64,000 nt of DNA. Source: Gammaproteobacteria bacterium (GTDB lineage Bacteria; Pseudomonadota; Gammaproteobacteria; Burkholderiales; Thiobacillaceae). A program made the translations under genes and the position numbers. Below are positions 4,619-55,604 of the stretch, in pieces. Numbering within the stretch: position 1 is the stretch's first letter; each line of letters begins with the position of its first letter. The notes below the pieces were generated by a model, which saw only the letters and a list, made by a program, of their open reading frames with translations, was not told where the DNA came from and did no database searches. Where the stretch lies: NCBI GenBank assembly GCA_018820765.1, contig JAHJNN010000008.1, forward strand, positions 1 to 64,000, written 5' to 3'.

Positions 4619-5563
4619 ATGGCGACTCAACCCAATCAGGCGCTTCCCAACGGATACCGGCTGAACGAATACACCATCGTGCGCAAGATCGGCGGCGGTG
4701 GCTTCAGCATGGTCTATCTGGCGCGCGACGACAACAACCAGTCGGTGGCGATCAAGGAATACCTGCCTGGCGCGCTGGTGCTGCGTACCGAAGGCTCGGT
4801 CATCGTGCAGGCCAGTTCGACCGAGAACAACAACATCTTCCGCCACGGCATGAAGTGCTTTTTCGAGGAAGGCCGGGCGCTGGCGCGCATCGACCATCCC
4901 AACGTCGTGCGCGTGACCAACTTCTTCCGCGCCAACGACACCGTCTACATGGTCATGCGCTTCGAGCGCGGCAAGACCCTGCAGCAGCACATCCAGGCCA
5001 ACCGCGGCACCATCCGCGAAAGCTTCATCCGGCGGGTGTTCGCCCAGCTTCTGAACGGCCTGCGCGAGGTGCATACGCACAAGCTGCTGCATCTCGACAT
5101 CAAGCCGTCCAACCTCTACATCCGTCTCGACGGCTCGCCGGTGCTGATCGACTTCGGCGCCGCGCGGCAGACCCTCACCCAGGAAGAGAGCAAGCTGCAG
5201 CCCATGTACACCCCCGGATTCGCCGCCCCCGAGCAATACCACAACCGCGAGCGGCTGGGACCGTGGACCGACGTCTACAGCATCGGCGCCAGCCTGTACG
5301 CCTGTCTGGCCGGCTATCCGCCGCAGTCGGCGGATGCGCGCCTGCTCAACGACAAGCTGGTGCCGGCGACGGTGAACTGGCGCGGGGCCTATTCCGACCA
5401 GTTGCTGGAAACCATCGACCAGTGCCTCAAGCTCAATTACATGGAGCGTCCGCAAAGCATTTTCAGCCTGCAAAAGGTGCTGATGGACCGTACGGCCATG
5501 ACGCCGCCCCGCCCCTCATTTTTGAGCTCGATCAAGCGTTCGCTGAGCAAGGAATTGTTTTAA
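4619..5563 (+). CDS. Cytoplasmic serine/threonine protein kinase (Hanks type)
   Basis: A 314-residue kinase with a glycine loop GGGGFSMV (25-32), VAIKE with ATP-binding K46, catalytic loop HLDIKPSN (D160, N165), DFG (178-180), APEQ (203-206) and TDVYSIG. The usual HRD reads HLD, so this is a non-RD kinase that may not need activation-loop phosphorylation. No transmembrane or sensor domain follows; the C-terminus is only about 40 residues past the kinase fold. A PP2C phosphatase starts 9 bp downstream, so the two probably act as a reversible Ser/Thr phosphorylation pair. The targets are unknown. Confidence 0.9.
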   Translation: MATQPNQALPNGYRLNEYTIVRKIGGGGFSMVYLARDDNNQSVAIKEYLPGALVLRTEGSVIVQASSTENNNIFRHGMKCFFEEGRALARIDHPNVVRVTNFFRANDTVYMVMRFERGKTLQQHIQANRGTIRESFIRRVFAQLLNGLREVHTHKLLHLDIKPSNLYIRLDGSPVLIDFGAARQTLTQEESKLQPMYTPGFAAPEQYHNRERLGPWTDVYSIGASLYACLAGYPPQSADARLLNDKLVPATVNWRGAYSDQLLETIDQCLKLNYMERPQSIFSLQKVLMDRTAMTPPRPSFLSSIKRSLSKELF

Positions 5564-50350: not shown

Positions 50351-53300
50351 TCAGGCCAGCGTGTCCAGCGGCTTCGGCGCGCCGATCAGATACCCCTGCA
50401 CACAATCCACTCCCATCTCCCCCAACTTCGCCAGCATTTCCGCATCTTCCACATACCCCGCCACCGTCCTGATCCTGAGGAAGCTGCCGGTCTCCAGGAT
50501 CGACCGCACCAGCGCCTCGTCGATCATGCTGGTGGAGATCTCGCGCACCAGGGCACGGTCGATCTTCAGGTAATCCAGCTTCATGCTCTTCAGCTGCGTG
50601 TAGGAGCTGTTGCCGGCACCAAACTCATCCAGCGTGAAACGACAGCCGTAGCGCTGCAGCTGGCGCATGAACAGCTGGGTCTGGGCGTGGCCTTCGACGG
50701 CGTCGGCTTCGCTGATCTCGAAGATCAGCTTGTCGCCGGGGAGGTCGCCGCGCGTCAGGTCGGCCAGCACCAGCTTGAGGAACAGCGGGTTGGTGACCGA
50801 CTGGCCGGAGAGGTTGATCGACAGCCCGCCCAGTTGGGCGACCTGCTCGGGATGCGCGCGCATCCACTGCATCACGTTTTTCACCACCCAGCGGTCGATT
50901 TCGGTGATGCGCTGCAGGCGCTCGGCCACCGCGATGAGGTCGCGCGTGGCGATGCTGCGTTCGCCGTGAGCGATCGGGTGCAGCAGCACCTCGTAGTAAA
51001 GCGGGGCGCGCGCAGCGTCGGCCGTGGCGACCACTGCCTGGCAGTCGAGGCTGAGCTCGTTGTGGGCGAGGATGGCGGTCAGTTCGTGCGCCCATTCGGC
51101 CAGCGCCAGCACGCCGCTGTCGTCAGCCTCGCTGCTGTATGCGACGACGCCAAGGTCGGATTCGCGCGCACGGGCGCAGGCGGCGTTGGCGTTGTCGTAA
51201 TAGGTTTCCGGGTTGAGGCAGTCGCTTGCCCACATGAGGCCGGCCGCGGCCTGCACGCGGTAGCGGGTGCCGTCGATTTCGTGTCGCTGATCGGCGATGA
51301 AGCGGAGCAGGGCTTCGGTCTGCGCCATGGCGGCGGTGTGGTCGGCGGCCTCGACCCAGAACGCCAGGCCGGATTCCCCGGCGCGCGCCAGCAGTGCGAC
51401 CGGCGGCAGTTGCGCAGGCAACAACCCGGCGAACTTGCGCAGGATGGGGGTGCGGATTTCGCCGTCGGCCGCTTCGCCTGCGGGGGTGAGAATGTCGAGC
51501 TGGATCACGCCGATGCCGTAGCCGCCATCGGCCGCCTTGCTGCGCAGCCAGTTGCGGCGGACGGCGCGGAAGAAGGCCTTGCGGTTGGCGAGCCCGGTGG
51601 CGGGGTCGTGCGAGGCCTGCCACAAGAGGTCGCGCTGCATCTTCTGGATCATCGCGCTATAGGAGCGGTCCATCAGCGGCAGTTCCTGGTCTTCGGTCCA
51701 GTGCGCCTCGCCGTTTTCCAGCGATTGCAGCAGATCGGGGCGCTTGAGGTCGAGCTTCTTGATGCCGCGATAGTTGGCAAACACGTACACCGGCGGCTGG
51801 TCGCCGATCCAGATCAGGTTGAGCGGGGTGTCGAGCGACTGGAACTGCAGCCAGTCGCCCACCCGCAGGCGTTCGGCCAGATTGTCCTGCGCCTCGCTCA
51901 GGGGCTCGCTGGCGGCGTCGTTGAGGCGGGCGGCGACCGGCGTGTGCTGGTGCTGCGATGCGTCCGTGTCGAACAGGGCGCCGGCAAGCTGATCGACGAT
52001 GCGGTCCTGCGAAAACTTGTCGGCGCACACATGGGTGAGCGCCTGGTCGATGCGCTGCAGCAGGGTCTGGATGTCGGCGGCGGCGGGCGCGCCGGCGCGA
52101 TCCGGATCCAGCCATTCGCACAGCTGCTGCAGTACCTGCCAGGCTTCGTGCGCTTCCTCGCTGTCGATGCCGTGGCGCATCTCGGCCATCAACAGCACGT
52201 TGCGCCAGCCGCCGTTCAGAAGTTCGATCACGGCATTGGGTATCGAGCGCTCATCCAGCCGCGCCAGCAGTTCGCGCAGGATGCGCTGCTTGGCGACTTC
52301 CGCGTTCTGCCGACCTTCGCACATTTCCTGCAGGCGGAACACGCGTGCGGCGCGCTCATTCAAGAGCGGCTTGACCACGCGTTCGAGCTGGGTGCGCGCT
52401 TCCTCGAACACCCCCGGATTCTTGTCGGCTTCGGCGCTGATGCGGTCGGTCCAGCGGCTCATCAGCCGCAACAGGCGCGCATCGGCGATCTTGCCGTCGT
52501 CGCCCGCCACCATGCCGATGCGGTCGAGCGTGTTCAGCACCCGGTGCGCCGGGTGCGCGGGCGAGTTCAGAAACTGCGGGTCCGACATGGCCAGCCGGAT
52601 GAGGCTGGTTTCCAGTTGCCGGAAGATCGGTTGCACCCCCGCGCTCACCGATTTTTCGGCGTTCATGGTGTCGAACAGGGCGCCGAACATGTCGACCGAA
52701 CGCTGCATCTCGTGGCTGATGACGGGCGGCAGCGCGCCGGCACTGGCCAGGCGCTGCAGCACTGGCGAGTGCGCCACGCCGGGCATGCCGCCGGCCATCA
52801 TGGGCTGGCCAGTTCCGCCCGCCCCGGGCGCCGCGCCTGGGGCGGCTTGGCCCGGTTGGGGGCCGCCGGGGCCGGCGGGCGTGGAAACGGCGCCTGCGGC
52901 GCCCGATGAGGCCGTCGGCTGGCCGCGGAAAAAATCCAGCAGCGAGCCGGCCAGCCGGCTGAGCGCACCTTGCTGCGGTGCGTCCCCGCTTGCGGGGGCC
53001 TGGGCCTGGGCTTGGGCCTCCACCGTTGCGGCGACATCGGGCGCCGACGGCGCGGTGGCAGGCTGCGCGGGGGCAGGTTGCGTTTGCTCGGTCTCGGCCT
53101 CCGCCTGCGAAACCGGCAGCAGCGCCAGCAGTTCGGCATACAGCGGCGCCAGCTGCTCGGTCAGCACGTCGCGCAGCAAGGCATACGCCACCTGGCGTGC
53201 GCGCGCCGGCACCGGGACATCCTCAATGGCGCTGCGGTAGGCGTGCCCGATCACGGCCGGGCCGAAGGGGTTGTTGCTGTGGTCGCAGGCAAAATTGAAC

Positions 53301-54097
53301 AATTGCCCGATGCGCGGCTCGATGGAAAAAAGCTGCGTGCGATATATCTCGTCCAGTTTATGGACTTCGGTCGCGGTGGCGAGCCAGTCCTCGAAATCCT
53401 GTTCGTCGACCAGGCTCAGCCCGCCGTCCATGGAGTCGCGGGTGGCCTGCGTCTGCACTGGCCGCGCCTGCCTCAGTGCGTCCATCACCTGTTGCGCAAA
53501 GCGGGTCTGCACGCTTGCCGCCAACTTGCCGAATTCGAGCGTGGCGTCCAGCAGCCCGTTGTGTTCGGCAATGCTCGCGGCGTGTTGGGCGGCTGCGCTC
53601 AGCTTGTCGCCCAACTGCTGCATCACCTGGTCATGCACCAACTGCAGGGTTTCATTCAGCAGCGTCGAACTGACGTCGCGCAGGCGCGGGGAGGCCTCGG
53701 GGGCAGGCAGGCCGGCAAGCGTCTGGCGGTGGCCGGCCATGCGCAGCTTCTGCAGCGCCTGCAGCGCATCGGCGGGGTGATGCTCGAATGCGACGCCGAC
53801 TCCCAGCGGGCTCAGGCGCCTGAGCTTCGCAGGCACGCGGACGATCTGGGCGATGTCGTTCCGGTCTGGAGCGAAGCAGATTTCCACCGCGGCGTTCGAG
53901 CGATTGTGCAGCGAGGCGATTGCCGCTTCCGGGTCGGTGAATTTGAGAAACAGGCCACCGAGACAGAAATCGCGGATTTCGCAGGCGATGTCGGGGTGCC
54001 CGGGTTGCGTGATCACCGCGCTTTGAGCAACCTCGAAGCGCTTGCCATGTCGCGATTCCCGGCCGCTGTAAGCGTGGTCTGTGCTGTTCGCCGTCAT
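50351..54097 (-). CDS. PilZ-DUF1631-GGDEF-EAL signalling protein with degenerate catalytic motifs
   Basis: 1248 residues. N-terminal PilZ (about 15-110; HGKRFEVAQ, IRDFCLGGLFLKF), a long DUF1631 helical region with an Ala/Pro/Gln/Gly-rich linker (about 345-445), then GGDEF-like (HDPATGLANRKAFF; the GGDEF itself reads GESGL) and EAL-like domains. In the latter, EAL is EVL, DDFG is DEFGAG and KID is kept, but the AEGVE motif reads VAGYVED, losing a metal-coordinating Glu. Both enzymatic activities are doubtful; binding of c-di-GMP by PilZ or EAL is more likely. No signal peptide or membrane segment. Confidence 0.88.
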   Translation of the reverse strand: MTANSTDHAYSGRESRHGKRFEVAQSAVITQPGHPDIACEIRDFCLGGLFLKFTDPEAAIASLHNRSNAAVEICFAPDRNDIAQIVRVPAKLRRLSPLGVGVAFEHHPADALQALQKLRMAGHRQTLAGLPAPEASPRLRDVSSTLLNETLQLVHDQVMQQLGDKLSAAAQHAASIAEHNGLLDATLEFGKLAASVQTRFAQQVMDALRQARPVQTQATRDSMDGGLSLVDEQDFEDWLATATEVHKLDEIYRTQLFSIEPRIGQLFNFACDHSNNPFGPAVIGHAYRSAIEDVPVPARARQVAYALLRDVLTEQLAPLYAELLALLPVSQAEAETEQTQPAPAQPATAPSAPDVAATVEAQAQAQAPASGDAPQQGALSRLAGSLLDFFRGQPTASSGAAGAVSTPAGPGGPQPGQAAPGAAPGAGGTGQPMMAGGMPGVAHSPVLQRLASAGALPPVISHEMQRSVDMFGALFDTMNAEKSVSAGVQPIFRQLETSLIRLAMSDPQFLNSPAHPAHRVLNTLDRIGMVAGDDGKIADARLLRLMSRWTDRISAEADKNPGVFEEARTQLERVVKPLLNERAARVFRLQEMCEGRQNAEVAKQRILRELLARLDERSIPNAVIELLNGGWRNVLLMAEMRHGIDSEEAHEAWQVLQQLCEWLDPDRAGAPAAADIQTLLQRIDQALTHVCADKFSQDRIVDQLAGALFDTDASQHQHTPVAARLNDAASEPLSEAQDNLAERLRVGDWLQFQSLDTPLNLIWIGDQPPVYVFANYRGIKKLDLKRPDLLQSLENGEAHWTEDQELPLMDRSYSAMIQKMQRDLLWQASHDPATGLANRKAFFRAVRRNWLRSKAADGGYGIGVIQLDILTPAGEAADGEIRTPILRKFAGLLPAQLPPVALLARAGESGLAFWVEAADHTAAMAQTEALLRFIADQRHEIDGTRYRVQAAAGLMWASDCLNPETYYDNANAACARARESDLGVVAYSSEADDSGVLALAEWAHELTAILAHNELSLDCQAVVATADAARAPLYYEVLLHPIAHGERSIATRDLIAVAERLQRITEIDRWVVKNVMQWMRAHPEQVAQLGGLSINLSGQSVTNPLFLKLVLADLTRGDLPGDKLIFEISEADAVEGHAQTQLFMRQLQRYGCRFTLDEFGAGNSSYTQLKSMKLDYLKIDRALVREISTSMIDEALVRSILETGSFLRIRTVAGYVEDAEMLAKLGEMGVDCVQGYLIGAPKPLDTLA

Positions 54098-54219
54098 GCC
54101 TGTCTACCCCCTGAGTATTCGCCGATTATAGGGTTTGAATGGCTGAATGATTATGCTGTAGGTCCATTGTATTTAAAGGCGGTTGGCGCGGGGAGGCGGG
54201 TTTTGATAGACTGGCAGCC

Positions 54220-54288
54220 ATGAACTTGGCCGCTGTGTTCTTTTTTAGCCGCTTTTATCCCACGCTCAGGGCGGTCGGGAGGCGCTGA
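54220..54288 (+). CDS. Aromatic-amino-acid leader peptide for aroG
   Basis: 22 codons: MNLAAVFFFSRFYPTLRAVG then RR, with four Phe and one Tyr packed between codons 7 and 13. A rho-independent terminator starts 25 bases after its stop and lies 45 bp before the DAHP synthase ATG. This is the layout of translational attenuation, in which ribosomes stall on Phe/Tyr codons when charged tRNA is scarce. The AGGGCGGT stretch at 54268-54275 can pair with ACCGCC at 54313-54318, giving an antiterminator. The ribosome site is weak. The role is inferred from architecture. Confidence 0.75.
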   Translation: MNLAAVFFFSRFYPTLRAVGRR

Positions 54289-54312
54289 GACGAACAGCAC
54301 AGCCTTAACGAA

Positions 54313-54340
54313 ACCGCCAGCCTGCTGGCGGTTTTTTGTT
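54313..54340 (+). terminator. Attenuator terminator upstream of aroG
   Basis: ACCGCCAG, CCTG loop, CTGGCGGT, then TTTTTTGTTT: an 8-bp perfect stem with a U-run, positioned between the leader peptide and aroG rather than after a gene on this strand. Confidence 0.88.
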
Positions 54341-54381
54341 TAGGCCGCTGCGGACCCAGGCACACCCTTACGGAGCCGAAA

Positions 54382-55455
54382 ATGACAGCCCAAACCGACG
54401 ACACCCGCATCGAGCAAAGCGGCGAACTGCTTGCCCCGATGCAGATCATGCGCGAGCTGCGCGCCAGCGACGCCGTGCACACGCACGTGGTGCATGCGCG
54501 CAGCGCCATCCACGACGTGCTGCGGGGGGCGGACGACCGCATGTTCGTTGTCGTCGGCCCCTGTTCCATCCACGATCCGGCGGCCGCACTTGATTATGCG
54601 AGGAAGCTGAAGCCGCTGGCCGACGAACTGATGCACGAGCTCGTCATCGTGATGCGGGTGTATTTCGAGAAGCCGCGCACCACGGTGGGCTGGAAGGGAC
54701 TGATCAACGACCCGCATCTGGACGAGAGCTTCGACATCAACGAAGGCCTGCGGCTGGCGCGCAAGCTGCTGCTGGACGTCAACGAAATCGGCCTGCCCTG
54801 CGCGACCGAGTTCCTCGACCTGATCTCGCCGCAATACATCGCCGACCTGGTGAGCTGGGGCGCCATCGGCGCGCGCACCACCGAATCGCAGTCGCATCGC
54901 CAGCTGGCGTCCGGCCTGTCGTGCCCGGTGGGATTCAAGAACGGTACCGACGGCAGCCTCAGGATTGCCGTCGACGCGATCAAGGCGGCGGCGGCGCGCC
55001 ACCATTTCATTTCCATCACCAAATCGGGCCACGTCGGCGTGTTCAGCACCTCGGGCAACGAGGATGCCCACGTCATCCTGCGCGGCGGCAAGGCGCCCAA
55101 CTATGACGCCGCCAGCGTCAATCTGGCGTGCAGCGAACTGGCCGCGGCCGGCCTGCGCCAGCAGTTGATGGTCGACTTCTCGCATGCCAATTCGAGCAAG
55201 CAGTACCAGCGCCAGATCGATGTCGCCGCCGACGTGGCCGCGCAGGTGTCCGGCGGCGATACGCGCATCATCGGCGCCATGGTCGAAAGCCATCTCAACC
55301 CCGGGCGCCAGGACCTGGTCCCCGGCCAGCCGCTGGAATACGGCAAGTCGATCACCGACGCCTGCATCGGCTGGGATGACACCATCCCCCTGCTGCACAT
55401 GCTGGCCGGCGCGGTGAAGAAACGCCGCCTGGCCGCGCCGATGGATGAGCAATAA
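54382..55455 (+). CDS. aroG: 3-deoxy-7-phosphoheptulonate (DAHP) synthase, class I
   Basis: 357 residues of the AroF/G/H type that joins PEP and erythrose-4-phosphate, opening the shikimate pathway. Motifs: VVVGPCSIHDP, MRVYFEKPRTTVGWKGLIND, GARTTESQSHR, GFKNGTDGS, KSGHVGVFSTSGN and the metal-binding DFSHANSSKQ. GGAG precedes the ATG. Feedback class cannot be assigned, but the Phe/Tyr codons of the upstream leader suggest Phe- or Tyr-responsive expression. Confidence 0.95.
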   Translation: MTAQTDDTRIEQSGELLAPMQIMRELRASDAVHTHVVHARSAIHDVLRGADDRMFVVVGPCSIHDPAAALDYARKLKPLADELMHELVIVMRVYFEKPRTTVGWKGLINDPHLDESFDINEGLRLARKLLLDVNEIGLPCATEFLDLISPQYIADLVSWGAIGARTTESQSHRQLASGLSCPVGFKNGTDGSLRIAVDAIKAAAARHHFISITKSGHVGVFSTSGNEDAHVILRGGKAPNYDAASVNLACSELAAAGLRQQLMVDFSHANSSKQYQRQIDVAADVAAQVSGGDTRIIGAMVESHLNPGRQDLVPGQPLEYGKSITDACIGWDDTIPLLHMLAGAVKKRRLAAPMDEQ

Positions 55456-55502: not shown

Positions 55503-55604
55503 GTGGCGGGCCTCCCCGCATGGCTAAGTCGTGAATCGGGTCAGGTCCGGAAGGAAGCAGCCACAGCGAGTGATGCCAGTGCCGGGGTTCTGGCTCGCCA
55601 CTTT
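55503..55604 (+). ncRNA. ffs: Signal recognition particle 4.5S RNA
   Basis: About 100 nt. The invariant apical region GGTCAGGTCCGGAAGGAAGC is present, followed by AGCCACAGCGAG, and the ends GTGGCGGGCC and GGCTCGCCAC pair to close the hairpin. It ends in CTTTT. A -10-like TAAAAT at 55493-55498 fits a start at about 55504. It binds Ffh for co-translational membrane targeting. It lies just before dnaX, as in many betaproteobacteria. Confidence 0.95.

Follow-up and report, generated by a model that had tools for sequence, protein, structure and literature searches.

Anatomy of the aroG locus

The window (the whole stretch of 64,000 nucleotides that was analysed) carries the gene aroG for a class I DAHP synthase, preceded by a short upstream open reading frame (uORF) rich in aromatic codons and by an intrinsic terminator (Table 1). 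The AroG protein matched TIGR00034 (aroFGH) with 535.6 bits against a cut-off of 173.2 and PF00793 at 4.1e-96, and narrowly missed the narrower AroG model NF006723 (565.3 vs a cut-off of 568). The preliminary description of this DNA had placed here a 22-codon ORF with clustered FFF and FY codons, followed by a GC stem of 8 bp with a U-run and then by aroG; its coordinates for the ORF and the aromatic codons proved correct to the base, and the stem, the U-run and the gene were all verified, as was the complementarity of AGGGCGGT (54268-54275) to ACCGCC in the 5' arm of the terminator. The uORF holds four F codons and one Y codon among its 22, and a spacer of 22 nt separates its stop from the terminator, whose stem and loop occupy 54311-54334, whose T run reaches 54337, and whose stem extends to 10 bp once A-U pairs are counted. 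The region 2 core has a single occurrence in the genome, two other sites differing from it by 3 bases.

Table 1. Features of the aroG leader region in the window, with the basis of each assignment
Feature	Position	Strand	Basis
Candidate -35 box TTGGCG	54183..54188	+	Read directly; majority bases in family leaders
Extended -10 box TGA-TAGACT	54204..54212	+	Read directly; family column majorities
Leader-peptide uORF MNLAAVFFFSRFYPTLRAVGRR, 22 codons + TGA, predicted leaderless	54220..54288	+	ORF call, conservation
Control codons F7 F8 F9 S R F12 Y13	54238..54258	+	Sequence, genus conservation
Region 1, part of the predicted 1:2 anti-antiterminator hairpin	54258..54267 (approximate limits)	+	Folding
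Region 2 (core GGCGGT 54270-54275) and 5' strands of the distal antiterminator helices	54268..54287	+	Complementarity, conservation
Spacer; CAGC and GCCTT are 3' strands of the distal antiterminator helices	54295..54310	+	Folding, pairing conservation
Intrinsic terminator: region 3 AAACCGCCAG, loop CCTG, region 4 CTGGCGGTTT, U-run	54311..54337	+	Terminator and stem finding
aroG, class I DAHP synthase, 357 aa, proposed regulated gene	54382..55455	+	TIGR00034, PF00793

Such an arrangement is rare by chance. Among 3000 dinucleotide shuffles of 54098-54381, an aromatic-rich ORF (at least 5 F/Y/W per 10 codons) arose in 145 and a perfect 8-bp terminator in 3, while the ORF followed by the terminator arose in 0; when both strands of the window were cut into 898 half-overlapping tiles of 284 nt, one ORF, eight terminators and one combination were counted.

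The gap 5' of aroG measures 284 bp, and its other flank is a large divergent gene (50351-54097) matching c-di-GMP turnover proteins of the GGDEF/EAL type. On the far side of aroG, a bacterial small SRP RNA (RF00169, 71 bits) lies at 55505-55602, between aroG and dnaX, with repeated GGATTCAGGGGTCAG-like DNA 3' of it.

Regarding the rest of the genome (assembly 99.98% complete), aroG was the only DAHP synthase gene found: the type II enzyme (PF01474) had no match, and a second PF00793 protein, considered as another DAHP synthase, was rejected since it is KdsA. Neither TrpR (PF01371) nor a TyrR-type HTH (TIGR04381) matched in the genome, while the E. coli controls matched both, which fits the contrast with TyrR/TrpR control that had been drawn at the outset. 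Trp codons are absent from the window leader, and a shortage of Trp alone should therefore go unsensed at aroG.

A candidate promoter and a probably leaderless uORF

Across 54 Thiobacillaceae leaders, T, T, G, G and C are the commonest bases at -37 to -33 from the uORF ATG (61-85%), and the -10 columns T-16, G-15, T-13, A-12 and T-8 stand at 74-83% each. The majority TG..TA...T box of the family thus ends at -8 from the ATG, and in the window it stands 7 nt before it; the candidate -35 and -10 boxes together share 8 of 12 positions with the consensus (counted by hand), and a consensus promoter scan returned no + strand promoter at the window uORF. Shine-Dalgarno pairing was seen at 3/54 Thiobacillaceae uORFs vs 53/54 aroG starts, and in the leaders of other families at 2/22 uORFs vs 16/21 aroG starts. 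Taken together, this suggests that the uORF is translated from a leaderless RNA, a claim that we limit to Thiobacillaceae because the promoter seems to lie further upstream in some other families.

Conservation within the genus

The family search yielded 56 genomes of the window's genus, 48 of them with a full-strength AroG match, from which 47 aroG loci of 46 genomes were examined (L001-L028, L033-L045 and L330-L335); the matches of G033 and G397 were left out because they start inside the gene. The preliminary description had named the absence of the ORF or of the pairing in relatives as what would count against it, and the feature survived this comparison, with the terminator kept at 47/47 loci, an intact leader with a YP or HP and an AVGRR-type end at 46/47, and the plan recurring in other families (see below). 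The single exception, L044, has a uORF frameshifted in its T run that stops after FFF (MNCAAKFFF), with the terminator and the rest kept; this may be a true loss or a homopolymer assembly error. The leader of L028 shows a deletion of exactly three bases.

Within 27 genus leaders of 22 codons, F9, F12 and Y13 are present in 26 each, F8 in 23 and F7 in 20; the N-terminal codons are variable, and in 27/27 not one base differs within codons 18-21 or the stop. As this block is region 2, it is conserved as RNA. Counting of synonymous and nonsynonymous changes in the genus did not distinguish the uORF frame from other frames, and the coding argument therefore rests on the in-frame deletion, the frame-specific aromatic content and the recurrence across families. 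The pattern TTYTTYTTYWSNCGNTTYTAYCC was found in 2/300 genomes of the order, both from the window's genus; the exact peptide is thus restricted to genus level, its overall plan being broader.

Spread across the family and the order

Outside the genus, 53 genomes of the family had a match and 35 upstream regions were taken, 26 of which contain an ORF with at least 4 F/Y/W per ten codons and 31 of which satisfy the strict GGCGG...CCGCC...GGCGG-TTTT expression; L075, L078 and L080 miss this expression yet have a terminator, and L067 is without such an element. Six loci of one genus, g27 (L054, L055, L057, L058, L060 and L065), keep the -10 box and the terminator and have only 1-3 aromatic codons, which points to a possible loss or change of sensing. 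At L052, leader and terminator lie far 5' of aroG, with extra, apparently repeated DNA between.

A set of 25 loci (L081-L105, 23 from other families) gave 6 with at least 6 F/Y/W per ten codons. We then have a sample of 60 loci outside the family, one per genus out of 98 genera with a match, in which the same threshold was reached on the gene strand in 15/60 and on the opposite strand in 0/60, and missed on the gene strand by 45/60. Leaders were picked from nine other Burkholderiales families (f3, f4, f8, f10, f12, f13, f20, f23 and f32), and they share a plan in differing sequence: a run of F/Y/W codons, GGCGG near the end of the ORF, CCGCC...GGCGG and a U-run, all before aroG. Examples are MLRTAPYFFWFWYPTLLAAGRK (L029, f23), MSFARAYFFFYFSYSSPTAVKSGKRS (f8), MKFASPAFYFYFYGFLKPLAEEGTRSI (f4) and MTAKFYFYFFWHLTPLADREGRL (f32).

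In all, 78 leaders and their start codons were chosen by eye, and gene-strand ORFs were dropped as likely chance in L105, L108, L120, L121, L130, L132, L158, L161, L162 and L164, as were extra ORFs in L078, L106, L125, L143 and L156; L161, though dropped from the picked leaders, reaches the 6-of-10 threshold and so is one of the 15/60. The terminator lies 16-45 nt 3' of the stop codon in 76/78 of these hand-picked leaders. Per frame, 76 leaders have a mean of 5.8 aromatic codons in the uORF vs 3.0 and 1.8 in the other two, in a set picked for aromatic content. A-U/G-C exchanges between leaders occur among the terminator pairs, and these were not counted as covariation since the stem finder demanded perfect stems.

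On a tree of 45 AroG proteins, the presence of a leader required 7 changes, compared with a mean of 15.2 for shuffled labels, 0/500 shuffles being as low; here the second tandem aroG copy L166b was assigned leader-free by default, and some rows labelled leader-free (e.g. L183, L188, L189 and L203) have weak matches judged chance. The leader thus tracks AroG history, with several gains or losses. Tandem aroG copies were seen in family f23 (L166; G057 = L029), with a leader of F, W and Y codons before the first copy.

A pattern scan that contains no gene information

The pattern TTTTAYTTYTAYTTYN{8,30}GGCGGN{35,65}CCGCC, which has no gene information in it, matched at least 120 stretches of a named genome collection, and 80 loci among the matches listed were examined. 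A DAHP-synthase class I signature (a sequence motif test, as opposed to a domain scan) stood 219-443 nt downstream in 63/80 of them. Among the matches listed, the loci with the signature are labelled Burkholderia, Paraburkholderia, Caballeronia, Cupriavidus, Pandoraea, Trinickia, Bordetella and Achromobacter, and further Herbaspirillum, Herminiimonas, Undibacterium, Comamonadaceae and similar. L215 bears only the label Proteobacteria, and for its ORF a start codon was looked for and not found; the ORF is altered at its end in L225, L256 and L280; and L250 (Burkholderia) has the leader, with downstream DNA too short for the signature. Counting the 63 signature loci and L250, again among the matches listed, a perfect-stem terminator was present in 62/64, an element that the pattern does not require. 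At least 4 of the remaining 16 listed loci precede genes of the aromatic pathway, and the rest look like chance.

Pairing and modelled folding of the leader

Region 2 GGCGGTCG (54270-54277) pairs with CGAAACCGCC, and GAGGC/GCCTT together with GCTG/CAGC extend the helix to 17 pairs. Over 26 genus sequences this 17-pair antiterminator has 95.9% of cells paired, as against 22.7-50.6% when slid. Covariation was absent, no pair being changed on both sides in these 26 sequences (two near-copies omitted), and in most sequences of the genus the 2:3 duplex by itself did no better than its shuffles (p 0.10 for the window).

In a restricted model that folds only the RNA 3' of the ribosome, pairing of region 3 with the leader is 0.89-0.90 with the ribosome at F7-F9, 0.64-0.67 at F12-Y13, 0.02-0.12 from T15 to A18 and 0 from V19 through the stop. 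With the ribosome at codons 3-6 it is 0.86-0.88, as high as at the aromatic run, so that the model shows where region 2 is free and not that the aromatic codons are special. Applied to 76 leaders, it gives a mean of 0.74 at the aromatic codons, and 72/76 exceed 0.5 at these codons and stay under 0.1 at the stop, although zero pairing at the stop is built into the model because region 2 lies inside the ORF. In a freer model, which lets RNA upstream of the ribosome take part in the pairing, F12 drops to 0.16 and 26/76 leaders pass the strict criterion.

At equilibrium, in the full-length window RNA, the terminator wins in every ribosome state (0.93-0.99), and the switch must therefore rest on timing, decided during transcription; known attenuators likewise decide during transcription. 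With no ribosome on the RNA, pairing takes an intermediate value (0.43-0.54), and the models therefore do not predict strong termination of an untranslated leader. On these models, the structural case for a switch is fair, not proved.

Proposed mechanism and rival explanations

We consider it highly probable that aroG is controlled by ribosome-mediated transcription attenuation through a Phe/Tyr leader peptide. The basis of this reading is computed, and consists of the anatomy, conservation, complementarity, the association with aroG and the modelled folding; the interpretation of the preliminary description, that leader attenuation acts here, is supported on the same computational ground, by conservation, by the plan in other families and by a folding that fits stalling at the aromatic run. 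According to this proposal, transcription would start at 54220 or no more than a few bases away, the RNA beginning with the uORF start codon. With ample charged Phe-tRNA and Tyr-tRNA, the ribosome would reach the TGA and cover region 2, the terminator would form, and the terminated RNA would end near 54337, at about 118 nt. Under a shortage of charged Phe-tRNA, and perhaps of charged Tyr-tRNA, the ribosome would stall within FFFSRFY; GGCGGTCG would then stay exposed and could pair with CGAAACCGCC ahead of the synthesis of region 4, so that the terminator would come too late and aroG would be transcribed, presumably as a response to Phe and Tyr. Sensing of Tyr is the less certain part of the proposal, since the Tyr codon of Corynebacterium glutamicum aroR brings no Tyr sensing.

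The same elements could also be read as a constitutive terminator that lowers aroG expression or shields the gene against transcription from upstream, the short ORF being incidental. The terminator is plainly a strong one and prevails in all modelled states at equilibrium, nucleotide conservation within the genus is so high that conservation of the ORF could follow from that of the RNA, and L044 keeps its terminator beside a broken uORF. Insulation, however, finds little to act upon, as the upstream gene is divergent and no read-through from it exists to be insulated against, and an incidental ORF is hard to square with other families, where aromatic ORFs of other nucleotide sequence precede the terminator, in the uORF frame. 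We accordingly regard a merely constitutive element as improbable.

That the leader RNA senses something other than a stalled ribosome, be it a small molecule, an RNA-binding protein or a trans-acting RNA, seems to us very improbable: constraint at the RNA level is indeed shown by codons 18-21, every base of which is identical in 27/27, but regions 1-4 explain the conserved RNA, what leaders in other families retain is the aromatic run and not the sequence, and no family of Rfam 15 reached its cut-off at the window site or in 14 named loci. Hardly to be expected, too, is that the terminated leader RNA or the peptide acts mainly in trans, like Sinorhizobium trpL, although such a role may coexist with one in cis. 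A leaderless attenuator RNA with trans roles does exist in S. meliloti, as far as PMC7298713 describes it; at the present locus, the position before aroG is kept across families while the N-termini of the peptides vary freely, which favours a cis role. Attenuation by a stalled ribosome at the aromatic codons thus stays the preferred reading, and our analysis goes beyond the preliminary description in the longer antiterminator, the probably leaderless uORF, the W codons of some lineages and the spread past the genus.

Relation to known systems

The leader is a new, widespread case of a type of DAHP-synthase attenuation already known, and is absent from Rfam 15. Attenuation was reportedly hypothesised for E. 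coli aroF by Camakaris in 1980. One close likeness, by description, is C. glutamicum aroR-aroF, where a leader peptide (there Phe-Tyr-Phe) also stands upstream of a DAHP synthase gene, the leader has been detected (PMC4046766), and read-through rises under Phe limitation, Tyr availability being without effect in the account of PMC11802643, which cites Neshat et al. 2014; that system differs in being actinobacterial and in having two DAHP synthases (PMC4046766, in the text available) vs the one found here. The uORFC-13-1 motif before Acholeplasma aroF, likened likewise by description, combines a uORF containing one or more Phe codons and a terminator, both upstream of a gene for DAHP synthase; in the available text of PMC8632094 it is given for Acholeplasma and environmental sequences only, with regulation predicted from sequence.

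Among the hypothesised attenuators of aroF or DAHP synthase-tyrA operons in Gammaproteobacteria, one is listed for Shewanella aroF (PMC2659441) and one for Vibrio (PMC1173090 Table 7); these belong to other lineages, and the descriptions at hand give no comparable leader peptide. For Bordetella parapertussis, PMC1173090 lists, in the part available, a putative attenuator before another aromatic operon, not before aroG, and the main text of PMC2965389 leaves aroG, aroF and DAHP unmentioned. No description of an aroG leader peptide in Betaproteobacteria was found in such open-access literature as was accessible.

E. coli pheL is a Phe leader peptide with attenuation (PMC11802643, in the sections available), although it controls pheA and not a DAHP synthase gene; Rfam Phe_leader RF01859 was the best sub-threshold Rfam match of the window, end to end, at 19.8 bits and E 0.41, which is not significant and lies below the gathering cut-off of 55. 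DAHP synthase control in E. coli by TyrR and TrpR, DNA-binding repressors according to the same partial source, concerns the same enzyme step in another mode, with repressors instead of a leader. The attenuator uORF of S. meliloti trpL, on an RNA beginning at the AUG and with reported trans roles (PMC7298713, as available), is a Trp leader before trpE(G), and differs further in that leaderless translation at our locus is predicted from promoter spacing only.

Wider reading

With arguments that we judge evenly balanced for and against, the leader-peptide attenuator may be an old and common control of shikimate entry across Burkholderiales, replacing TyrR/TrpR in the window's genome, in which lineages would tune the aromatics sensed through their F, Y and W codons (F/Y in the window, F/Y/W in sampled f23 and many Burkholderia-group leaders), the sensor would be eroding in some Thiobacillaceae with terminator and antiterminator kept, and the RNA would be leaderless in Thiobacillaceae. 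The first shikimate-pathway enzyme determines the flow towards every aromatic amino acid, and the textbook control of this entry is that by the E. coli repressors. Our results suggest that, within a large order, many bacteria rely on ribosome stalling in place of repressors, and that the leader codons could tell which amino acids are sensed. If so, the eroding Thiobacillaceae leaders would form a natural series for the evolution of sensing specificity, and the leaders would offer ready reporters of aromatic starvation as well as engineering targets for aromatic production in Cupriavidus and relatives.

Leaders beyond the order

Some matches of the gene-blind scan come from elsewhere. L249 and L261 (Roizmanbacteria) and L274 (Microgenomates) have FYFYF leader ORFs, e.g. 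MSKKPFHRFYFYFYFTASGGVESYV, before DAHP synthetase family genes (PF00793), which follow the leader directly in L249 and L261 and come second, after a PfkB kinase, in L274; a perfect-stem terminator is present in L249 and L274. Aromatic synthesis may thus be under leader attenuation in candidate phyla. At L283 (Muribaculaceae), the leader MLKTYFAYYYFYFYFAE lies directly 5' of a prephenate dehydratase gene (PF00800, 1.3e-53), and at L263 (Roizmanbacteria, about 4970-5356) the leader MKNLNPNFYFYFTREGGGEGCDC and a terminator precede an ORF of 93 aa.
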